A stretch of 64,000 nt of DNA, from assembly GCF_000023705.1 (NCBI RefSeq), contig NC_012968.1, positions 310,001 to 374,000 on the forward strand, read 5' to 3'. The DNA comes from Methylotenera mobilis JLW8. GTDB lineage: Bacteria; Pseudomonadota; Gammaproteobacteria; Burkholderiales; Methylophilaceae. The translations under genes were made by a program, and so were the position numbers. The first letter of the stretch is position 1. Each line of letters begins with the position of its first letter. The notes below the pieces were generated by a model. The model was given only the letters and a program-made list of their open reading frames with translations, made no database searches and was not told the DNA's origin. This document shows positions 28,480 through 35,344 of the stretch, piece after piece.

Positions 28480-28731
28480 GTGTTAAGTGCCCAGCAGTTA
28501 GAAACATACATCACGCAAAATTTGGCGTGTGACTATATAAAAGTATTAGGTGATGACGGTACGCATTTTGAAGCGGTAATCGTCAGTCCTGAGTTTGTTG
28601 GTAAGACCATGATTAAGCAGCATCAGTTGGTATATGCAGCCCTGGGCGACAGAATGCGTGCAGAGATTCACGCTTTATCAATGCGGACTTTAACCCCGGA
28701 GGCGTGGTTAAAGTTACAGGGTGGCAACTAA
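28480..28731 (+). CDS. ibaG: BolA-family protein IbaG
   Basis: An 83-residue BolA-fold protein, likely acting in iron-sulfur handling with a monothiol glutaredoxin. It has the BolA core (CDYIKVLGDDGTHFEAVIVS, and KTMIKQHQLVYAALGDRM with the conserved His) and the invariant helix-turn segment IHALSMRTLTPEAW. Sequence is nearer IbaG/YrbA than BolA1. GTG start at 28480, with AAGGTGAG just upstream. The next gene encodes the expected partner GrxD. Confidence 0.9.
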   Translation: MLSAQQLETYITQNLACDYIKVLGDDGTHFEAVIVSPEFVGKTMIKQHQLVYAALGDRMRAEIHALSMRTLTPEAWLKLQGGN

Positions 28732-28791
28732 GGTAACAACTAAAGCTAGCGTGTGTCTAATTGGATGCAAGTGAAGCTAGATGTAAGTGAA

Positions 28792-28817
28792 AAGTTTTGT
28801 AATTAAGTTTTGTAATT
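28792..28817. repeat. Exact 13-bp tandem duplication
   Basis: AAGTTTTGTAATT occurs twice in a row immediately before the grxD ribosome-binding site. The same gap (28732-28827) also holds imperfect repeats of CAACTAA and AAGTGAA words. Confidence 0.7.
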
Positions 28818-28827
28818 AGGATAAATA

Positions 28828-29139
28828 ATGGATACGCAGGAATTAATCAGAAGTCAGGTAACAGGTAACCCAGTAGTGCTGTACATGAAAGGTAGTCCGA
28901 AATTTCCACAATGTGGTTTTTCAAATTTGGCAACGCAAATCCTCAGCGCATGTAATGTAGAGTATGTGGCGATTGACGTGTTGGCAGATCAAAATATACG
29001 TGAGGGTATTAAAGTTTATGCAAACTGGCCAACAATTCCACAGTTGTATGTAAACGGTGAGTTTATTGGCGGTTCAGACATTATGCGTGCCATGTATGAA
29101 AGTGGTGAGTTGCAAACATTATTGAATGCGACCAAATAA
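28828..29139 (+). CDS. grxD: Monothiol glutaredoxin GrxD (Grx4)
   Basis: CGFS-type glutaredoxin that carries or inserts [2Fe-2S] clusters. The 103-residue protein has the active site PQCGFS (Cys29), the glutathione-binding WPTIPQLYVNG and GGSDIMRAMYESGEL. An AGGATAA site precedes the ATG. It stands directly between ibaG, whose product is the classical binding partner, and murA. Confidence 0.95.
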   Translation: MDTQELIRSQVTGNPVVLYMKGSPKFPQCGFSNLATQILSACNVEYVAIDVLADQNIREGIKVYANWPTIPQLYVNGEFIGGSDIMRAMYESGELQTLLNATK

Positions 29140-30405
<1,266 letters not shown>

Positions 30406-32597: not shown

Positions 32598-33659
32598 ATG
32601 AGTAAGTATTGGAGCGATGTTGTTCATAAGCTCACCCCTTATGTGCCTGGCGAGCAGCCAAAAATTAATAATTTGGTGAAACTGAATACCAATGAAAACC
32701 CTTATGGCCCAAGCCCTAAGGTGCTCGATGCTTTAAAGCTGGAGGCTGCAGGAACCTTACGTTTGTATCCAGATCCTAATTCCGATGCTTTAAAAGCAGC
32801 TATTGCTGAAGTGCATCATCTGGATAGTAGCCAAGTGTTTGTGGGTAACGGCTCGGATGAGGTGTTGGCGCATGTGTTTCAAGCCCTGTTGAAGCATGAT
32901 CAACCATTGTTGTTTCCTGATATTACTTATAGCTTCTACCCAGTTTATTGCGGGTTGTATGGCATCGACTATCAAACTATTCCGTTGGCCGATGATTTTA
33001 GCATTCGCGTAGAAGATTACAAAAAGCCTAATGGCGGCATTATTTTCCCTAATCCTAATGCGCCAACTGGTATGCCGCTGCCATTGGCGAAAATTGAATG
33101 GCTGCTGCAGCACAATACTGAATCCGTAGTGGTGATAGATGAAGCTTACGTAGATTTTGGTACTGAGTCTGCGGTGAGTCTGATTAATCAATATCCTAAC
33201 TTGTTGGTTACCCATACCTTATCTAAAGCGCGTTCATTGGCGGGCTTGCGTGTTGGTTACGCATTGGGTTCTGCCACGCTGATTGAGGCGCTGATACGTG
33301 TCAAAGATAGCTTCAACTCTTACCCTATTGATAGATTTGCTTCTGCTGGGGCAGTGGCGGCAATGCAGGATGTAGACTGCTTTGAAGCAACCTGCCAAAA
33401 GGTGATCGCAACACGCGAGGCTTTGGTCGCGGATATGCAGGCACTGGATTTTGAAGTGTTGCCATCGGGAGCTAACTTTATTTTTGCCAAGCATAAAGTA
33501 CGCGACGGCGCTGAGTTAAGTGCAAAGCTACGTGAACATAGCATTATCGTGCGTCATTTCAAGTCACCCAGCCGTATTGCACCTTATTTGCGCATTACGA
33601 TCGGAACCGATGAGCAGTCTGTGCTGCTGCTTAAAGCGTTGAGAGCCATATTGAATTAA
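32598..33659 (+). CDS. hisC: Histidinol-phosphate aminotransferase
   Basis: PLP enzyme converting imidazole-acetol phosphate to histidinol phosphate. The 353-residue fold-type I aminotransferase has NPNAPTG (152-158), DEAYVDF (181-187) and the Schiff-base Lys210 in [21 protein letters not shown] lies before the ATG. It is the last gene before the hps insertion that divides the his genes. Confidence 0.95.
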
Positions 33660-33807
33660 AAAAATGTTGCCTGAAGTCTGGTAAAAGAGACTAGCTAAAA
33701 TACTCAAAGTGCCGCTATGGGCTAGTGTGGTTGTGGATGTTGACTGGGTAAATACGCGAGATCAAACTTTTTATATAGATAAAACATGCAAATTAAGCAT
33801 TAAAAGT

Positions 33808-33837
33808 TTGAATTTTCCCACGAAGTGCGGTTATGAT
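33808..33837 (+). promoter_or_regulatory. Promoter of hps
   Basis: TTGAAT, an 18-base spacer and TATGAT, giving a leader of about 97 bases. An imperfect inverted repeat (AAACTTTTTA .. TAAAAGTTT, 33764-33809) overlaps the -35 box and could be an operator. Confidence 0.5.
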
Positions 33838-33940
33838 AGCGAAATGTGCGTTTTGTGCACAATATAATAATTATTTTTAATCTGTATTTTTAACCTAGGT
33901 AAGTCATTAATCTGATTTATTATTAGTTGGAGGATGTATC

Positions 33941-34618
33941 GTGGCACAAACCCAAATGGCATTAGACTCATTAGATTTCGACGCAACAGTTGCTTTAGCA
34001 ACTAAGGTTGCTCCACACGTGGATATTTTAGAAATTGGTACACCATGCATTAAGCATAACGGTATCAAATTGCTACAAACATTGCGTGCTAAGTTTCCAA
34101 ACAACAAAATCTTAGTTGACTTAAAAACAATGGATGCTGGTTTCTATGAAGCTGAGCCATTCTACAAAGCAGGTGCTGACATTTGTACAGTATTGGGTAC
34201 TTCAGACATCGGTACTATCAAAGGCGTGATCGACGTTGCTAACAAATACGGTAAAAAAGCACAAATTGACTTGATCAACGTTGCTGACAAAAAAGCACGT
34301 ACACAAGAAGTTGCTAAATTAGGCGCGCACATCATTGGCGTGCACACTGGTTTAGATCAACAAGCTGCTGGTCAAACACCATTCGGTGACTTGGCTCTAG
34401 TTGCTGGTTTGAACTTAGGTCTTGAAATTTCAGTTGCTGGTGGCGTTAAAGCTGCTACAACTGCACAAGTACGTGACGCTGGCGCAACTATCATTGTTGC
34501 TGGTGCTGCAATCTACGGCGCTGCTGACCCAGCTGCTGCTGCTGCAGAAATCACTGCAATCGCTCATGGCGGTTCAACTGGTGGTTTGTTCGGCTGGATC
34601 AAAAAATTATTTAGCTAA
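33941..34618 (+). CDS. hps: 3-hexulose-6-phosphate synthase
   Basis: Fixes formaldehyde onto ribulose 5-phosphate to give hexulose 6-phosphate, the entry reaction of the RuMP cycle. The 225-residue (beta/alpha)8-barrel protein belongs to the orotidine-phosphate decarboxylase superfamily: DFDATVALATKVAPHVDILEIGTP at the N-terminus (by position 12-35), active-site DLKTMD (60-65), HTGLDQQAAGQTP, and phosphate-binding VAGGVK and IVAGAAIYGA. A short amphipathic tail (GGLFGWIKKLFS) follows the barrel. GTG start at 33941 with a strong GGAGG. Codon use is strongly biased, as in its highly expressed neighbours tuf and rpl genes. The nearest alternative, keto-gulonate-phosphate decarboxylase, is less likely. 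No phi (hexulose isomerase) gene is adjacent. Confidence 0.94.
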   Translation: MAQTQMALDSLDFDATVALATKVAPHVDILEIGTPCIKHNGIKLLQTLRAKFPNNKILVDLKTMDAGFYEAEPFYKAGADICTVLGTSDIGTIKGVIDVANKYGKKAQIDLINVADKKARTQEVAKLGAHIIGVHTGLDQQAAGQTPFGDLALVAGLNLGLEISVAGGVKAATTAQVRDAGATIIVAGAAIYGAADPAAAAAEITAIAHGGSTGGLFGWIKKLFS

Positions 34619-34638
34619 TCGCTAACTAGTTTGGTAAG

Positions 34639-34668
34639 AAACCCCAGCCTTAAAACTGGGGTTTTTTT
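34639..34668 (+). terminator. Strong terminator after hps
   Basis: The stem AAACCCCAG / CTGGGGTTT is followed by a T-run, 20 bases after the hps stop. It should isolate hps from hisB. Confidence 0.93.
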
Positions 34669-34756
34669 ATTTTATACTTTAAAATCATCATGTAGCTATG
34701 TGTTACAACCTGGTAATGGGTTAAAATGGATGCTGATAACATAAAACATTAGACTT

Positions 34757-35344
34757 ATGCGTAACGCCAAAATTACTAGAAACACCCTAGAAACTCAAAT
34801 TACCGTGAGCATCAATTTGGATGGTACCGGTATCTCTCAATTTAACACGGGTTTAGGCTTCCTGGATCACATGTTAGACCAGATTGCGCGTCATGGCATG
34901 ATGGACATTGAAGTGAATGCCAAGGGTGATTTGCATATTGATGCCCATCACACGGTTGAGGATATCGGCATTACGTTAGGCCAGGCTTTTGCGCAGGCTG
35001 TGGGTGATAAAAAAGGGATACGCCGTTACGGCCACGCCTATGTGCCGTTAGATGAAGCACTGTCAAGAGTGGTGCTGGATATTTCCGGACGCCCGGGGTT
35101 GGAGTTCGGCTGTACTTTCACACGCGCAGCGATTGGTAACTTTGATGTGGATTTAATCCATGAATTTTTCCAAGGCTTCGTGAATCATGCCAATGTCACT
35201 TTGCATATTGATAACTTAAAAGGTCATAATGCGCACCATCAGGCAGAAACCATATTTAAAGCCTTTGGGCGTGCGCTGCGTGTAGCCGTAGAGTTAGACG
35301 CGCGCATGGCGGGAATTATGCCATCCACCAAAGGTAGCTTATAA
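34757..35344 (+). CDS. hisB: Imidazoleglycerol-phosphate dehydratase
   Basis: Dehydrates imidazoleglycerol phosphate in histidine synthesis. The 195-residue protein is monofunctional: it has the two manganese-binding motifs HHTVED (64-69) and NAHHQAET, and FLDHM, but lacks the N-terminal histidinol-phosphatase domain of the E. coli fusion. A separate histidinol phosphatase must exist elsewhere. The ATG has no obvious ribosome-binding site; since the hps terminator lies upstream, a promoter is expected in 34670-34756 but is not clear. Confidence 0.96.

Follow-up and report, generated by a model that had tools for sequence, protein, structure and literature searches.

In Methylotenera mobilis JLW8, whose genome of 2,547,570 bases forms a single contig, a gene of formaldehyde fixation lies inside the histidine operon, which raises the question of what this gene does and why it is found there. 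We analysed a window of 64,000 nucleotides around it (positions 310,001 to 374,000 of NC_012968.1). As the initial annotation had stated, the gene (hps) splits the series hisG, hisD, hisC from hisB, hisH, hisA, hisF, hisI and hisE. Its GTG-start reading frame is intact, and the ribosome-binding site, the -35/-10 pair and the 3' terminator described there were all found (Table 1). Upstream of murA and the his operon (window 28480-30405), we also noted BolA/IbaG-like and monothiol glutaredoxin genes, assigned by eye, whose products are known partners of each other.

Table 1 Features of the hps region, in window coordinates
Feature	Position	Strand	Remark
hisC	32598..33659	+	upstream neighbour of hps
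Promoter-like -35/-10	33808..33837	+	TTGAAT-18-TATGAT; kept in close relatives
Ribosome-binding site of hps	33929..33933	+	GGAGG
hps2, 3-hexulose-6-phosphate synthase with predicted C-terminal membrane tail	33941..34618	+	225 aa, GTG start
C-terminal extension of the hps2 product, residues 211-225	34571..34615	+	linker GSTGG and amphipathic helix LFGWIKKLFS; missing from the canonical copy
Intrinsic terminator of hps	34636..34667	+	hairpin and T-run; family-wide, stem sequences vary
hps-hisB leader, candidate hisB promoter	34668..34756	+	TAAAAT -10, poor -35; block kept in near relatives
hisB	34757..35344	+	downstream neighbour of hps

The product matched the TIGR03128 profile (HxlA) over its full length with 243.2 bits, the cut-off being 200 bits. 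The catalytic core, including the VDLKTMDAGFYEAE region, is intact, and D60, K62 and D65 are invariant together with their surroundings in 18 sequences; we take the roles of these residues to be those established for the OMP decarboxylase/HPS superfamily. By profile and core residues, the gene product is thus a predicted 3-hexulose-6-phosphate synthase (HPS). Its placement is not new, since it is in print: PMC4109929 (2014) locates what is the same gene in the histidine cluster, and describes two conserved locations of hps with copies about 90% identical. The gene is probably mmol_0313 in the RuMP list of PMC3728764.

The second hps (1467626-1468255, minus strand), which the initial annotation had missed, represents the canonical form of the enzyme (HxlA/RmpA), clustered with phi and transaldolase in the order tal-hps-phi. 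The two copies share a catalytic domain at about 89% identity, and their fold family is that of PDB 3ajx and 3f4w. Besides its locus, the canonical copy differs at its end: it has 210 residues and lacks the last 15 of the 225-residue his-locus enzyme, whose extra residues end in GGLFGWIKKLFS. This difference holds throughout the family. Among his-locus copies with a readable end, drawn from 40 stretches of the family and then from 40 further ones, the extension was present on all 73 distinct copies, against none of 39 at the tal/phi locus. It was also present on all four copies assigned to neither locus, three of which lie in unrelated contexts and one at a contig end.

The tails occur in two forms. 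The form found in M. mobilis and in 49 of the 73 distinct his-locus copies consists of a Gly-rich linker and an amphipathic helix of 10-11 residues (form A). The remaining 24 are transmembrane (form T): GG and, in the usual case, one or two Lys precede a hydrophobic segment of 19 residues, whose mean Kyte-Doolittle value is 1.7-2.7, and an acidic tail of 25-110 residues follows, in which Pro, Ala, Glu and Val are mostly abundant. Charges in form T are often basic before the segment and strongly acidic after it, as expected for an N-in/C-out orientation. Within the amphipathic tail, GG, F, GW, K and LF were invariant in 18 sequences with identities down to 62%. The pN/pS ratio was 0.16 in the tail versus 0.14 in the core, with synonymous sites near saturation; by this measure, purifying selection acts to a similar degree on tail and core.

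In other families of the class, the HPS that we sampled carried no such tail, and plasmid-borne HPS were distant (below 60% identity), with no match among those listed reaching the tail. A literature search that left most subscription journals outside its reach returned no report of membrane-bound or tail-bearing HPS and no localisation data for the enzyme. Old reports are said to describe a particulate HPS in Methylococcus. The tail, membrane anchoring, the terminator and an exchange of cores are not mentioned in the part of PMC4109929 available to us, and within these limits we found no earlier report of the tail of the his-locus HPS.

What the tail resembles is a membrane-targeting helix of the RNase E/MinD type: it is short and amphipathic, bears basic residues, follows a flexible linker and displays the same motif. 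Its helical moment (0.59-0.75) and net charge (+1 or +2) are like those of RNase E and MinD-type segments, although a shuffle test of amphipathicity was weak for each sequence taken singly (p 0.02-0.09). About 85,000 genomes were scanned for the amphipathic tail, recast as a degenerate DNA pattern, and at least 120 matches were obtained. Among the 120 matches listed, 21 were HPS, 63 RNase E-like and 36 others; in the RNase E-like proteins the motif stands just after the catalytic domain, and one MinD-like ATPase among the matches listed carries it at the extreme C-terminus. Pfam confirmed the RNase E and the MinD/ParA-type example. When the tail by itself was compared with solved structures, no meaningful match was obtained.

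Two further groups of proteins emerged from the scan. In the Balneola group (L141, L155, L165, L189 and L228), proteins of ~600 residues, helicase-like by eye, end in GGVFGWVKKLFN or a near variant, which is likely a C-terminal membrane anchor. In Opitutae loci (L133, L134, L142, L145 and similar), a disordered protein rich in Ala/Pro and in Arg bears the membrane-targeting-like motif GGFFGWLKGLFGG and often ends in RPEGQQGGGAI; it is perhaps a membrane-bound RNA-binding protein.

The RNase E targeting sequence is a membrane-binding amphipathic helix, as shown by experiment (PMC4435900, PMC12594526). Like the HPS tail, it displays GG-[F/L]FGW-x-K-x-LF after a flexible region and has a basic-faced helix; it is internal, whereas the HPS tail is C-terminal. 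We rejected the idea that the tail descends from the RNase E of the host, because the latter carries a different membrane-targeting-like sequence, LSLFAKIKKFLGIG; the likeness is therefore one of type. The C-terminal helix of MinD shares the extreme C-terminal position, and the motif itself occurs in a Chloroflexi MinD-like protein (L196). Membrane binding by MinD is switched by ATP, and we know of no switch of this type for HPS. Alternation between a transmembrane and an amphipathic helix also has a precedent in the counterparts RNase Y and RNase E (PMC12594526), which are unrelated enzymes, whereas the HPS anchors are exchanged at one orthologous locus. Based on these features, we predict that the tail very probably anchors HPS to the membrane.

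Short linear amphipathic helices can have proteins as their targets as well, and the tail might instead contact Phi, a scaffold or the division machinery. The AlphaFold model is compatible with this, as it places a helix (residues 215-224) beyond a low-confidence linker, the helix itself being of low confidence (pLDDT about 53). However, a true transmembrane helix takes the place of the amphipathic one in other lineages, which points to lipid, and the same motif stands at known membrane-targeting positions in RNase E and MinD-like proteins. We therefore regard a purely protein-binding tail as unlikely.

Targeting peptides of bacterial microcompartments are likewise Gly-linked amphipathic helices, so that the tail could be imagined to load HPS into a protein shell, either a microcompartment or an encapsulin. 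A family-2 encapsulin (SrpI-like) is indeed encoded in the genome, but neither a microcompartment (BMC) shell protein nor a family-1 encapsulin (Linocin_M18) was found in it. Moreover, the encapsulin adjoins a cysteine desulfurase with a long N-terminal extension, presumably the usual cargo of this encapsulin family. The SrpI-like shell is absent from 14 of 45 tail-bearing genomes, and the transmembrane helix that replaces the amphipathic one in form T would make no sense in a shell cargo. Targeting to a shell that is not encoded in every tail-bearing genome was thus mostly rejected, and we give it a very small probability. The encapsulin gene (G000:C1:860357-861085, L281) lies between a serine O-acetyltransferase-like gene and the cysteine desulfurase, and SrpI-like encapsulins were detected in 31 of 49 family genomes tested.

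Membrane anchoring leaves the position of hps to be explained, and here the transcription signals are informative. Bare pattern matches were at chance level, with 20 promoter-like sites versus 19.5 expected and 13 terminator-like sites versus 12.8 expected; we nonetheless take the signals of hps as real because they are conserved in comparison. Between hps and hisB, a hairpin of dG at or below -10 with a T-run after it was detected in 60 of 67 distinct gaps, a number that fell to 1 of 67 when the sequences were shuffled; by the same search, 4 of 66 gaps between hisC and hps and 2 of 55 between hisB and hisH contained one. The stem sequence of the hps hairpin changes between lineages and its structure is kept. 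In the nearest species, both the -35/-10 block and the GGAGG are retained. Codon bias is extreme in the his-locus hps (Nc 30.6), equal to that of the tal-hps-phi copy (Nc 29.9), and flanking his genes and murA range from 44.8 to 54.3. The conserved terminator and promoter-like signals speak against co-transcription with the his genes and, taken with the his-unlike codon usage, suggest that hps is a separate and probably highly expressed unit, in agreement with the initial annotation. The annotation also expected a promoter for hisB; a conserved block after the terminator could hold one, but the -35, read by eye, is poor. An Rfam scan of 29-40 kb returned a single sub-threshold match, which overlaps the hps terminator and was taken as chance. 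Just 3' of the hps -10 box, TGTGCGTTTTGTGCACA (window 33845-33861) is kept in close relatives and is possibly an operator for a regulator of hps.

These signals bear on the suggestion that hps resides in the his operon through metabolic coupling, RuMP sugar phosphates and PRPP feeding histidine synthesis. The order hisC-hps-hisB is indeed retained in most genera of the family, which is what speaks for such a link, but hisC and hisB are adjacent in groups g13, g21, g2 and g16. In the basal genera g13 and g21 the paralogue has kept its tail and not its place, being found in three unrelated contexts beside an intact his operon, and in the streamlined lineages g2 and g16 the tailed copy is absent. 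The strong conserved terminator, the promoter-like block of its own and a codon usage different from that of the his genes also argue against coupling, which we found unsupported and consider quite improbable. The (beta/alpha)8 fold shared by Hps, HisA and HisF is real, but has no bearing on placement. A similar arrangement in non-methylotrophs, potential counter-evidence to the initial annotation, has no counterpart in our data because 399 genomes of the order yielded no true HPS beyond the family itself; matches there were weak, at best 27.5 bits, as for distant fold relatives. The his-operon position would accordingly be read as an insertion site without a functional link.

The history of the catalytic domain is less orderly than that of the tail. 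In the domain tree, tailed and untailed copies are intermixed, and several starred branches force this mixing: tailed and untailed copies of g12 and g18 fall in one clade (100/100), and the tailed L040 pairs with the untailed L116 (99/85). At one locus (L052, G046:C4:1756106-1761465), two tandem hps genes with identical 206-residue cores lie between hisC and hisB, one bearing form T (299 aa) and the other form A (224 aa). The simplest reading of these patterns would be gene conversion between the paralogues with retention of the tail; several independent gains of the tail are a possible alternative. In g4, g13 and g21 the tailed copy derives from a different HPS lineage (about 61-66% identical), and in g13 and g21 it sits outside the his locus. 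Selection keeps the tail, not the address. That the tail is a neutral relic of insertion beside hisB is hardly credible: g2 and g16 manage without a tailed copy, but the tail is under purifying selection, divides perfectly between the loci and is retained in unrelated contexts and where the catalytic domains share no more than about 62% identity. As a separate observation, basal genera (loci L093, L095 and L099; G177, G051 and G034) have two tandem hps of different lineages beside phi, with identities to the query of about 62% and 84%, and a third, tailed hps elsewhere.

We propose that the his-locus gene would encode a membrane-tethered HPS paralogue, strongly expressed from its own promoter and terminator. 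The catalytic domain would be that of an ordinary cytosolic HPS, with an RNase E/MinD-type amphipathic helix attached through the short Gly/Ser linker and lying flat against the inner face of the inner membrane; elsewhere in the family, a transmembrane helix with an acidic Pro/Ala/Glu tail would serve the same anchoring. Since HPS probably forms dimers or larger assemblies, each particle would have several anchors. The methanol and methylamine dehydrogenases of these bacteria act in the periplasm and release formaldehyde there. The tethered enzyme would condense formaldehyde with ribulose 5-phosphate as it crosses the membrane, before it spreads in the cytosol, and the soluble tal-hps-phi copy would handle the bulk. 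Taken as a whole, the reading we consider likely is that of an HPS tethered to the membrane and fixing formaldehyde on the inner side of it; for the role in capture at the point of entry by itself, we see the chances as evenly balanced. The lack of a tailed copy in g2 and g16 counts against a membrane HPS, and a tailed HPS is therefore dispensable in some methylotrophs of this family. More tentatively, and with less confidence than doubt, we envisage two pools of HPS, of which one is soluble and the other is fastened to the inner membrane through an exchangeable anchor. The latter pool would form a formaldehyde-catching layer that faces the periplasmic dehydrogenases; in the transmembrane lineages, the acidic tail, reaching into the periplasm, might contact the dehydrogenase or its cytochrome and so couple C1 oxidation physically to fixation on the other side of the membrane.

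These findings bear on a long-standing question, namely how RuMP methylotrophs that oxidise methanol in the periplasm and fix its carbon in the cytosol keep toxic formaldehyde low. A conserved membrane-tethered HPS makes spatial capture of formaldehyde directly testable through 15 residues. It would also represent a natural design for synthetic methylotrophy, a field in which enzyme proximity around Hps has been engineered artificially (PMC8879981). Finally, a tethered HPS would account for the presence of two near-identical hps genes in this family.
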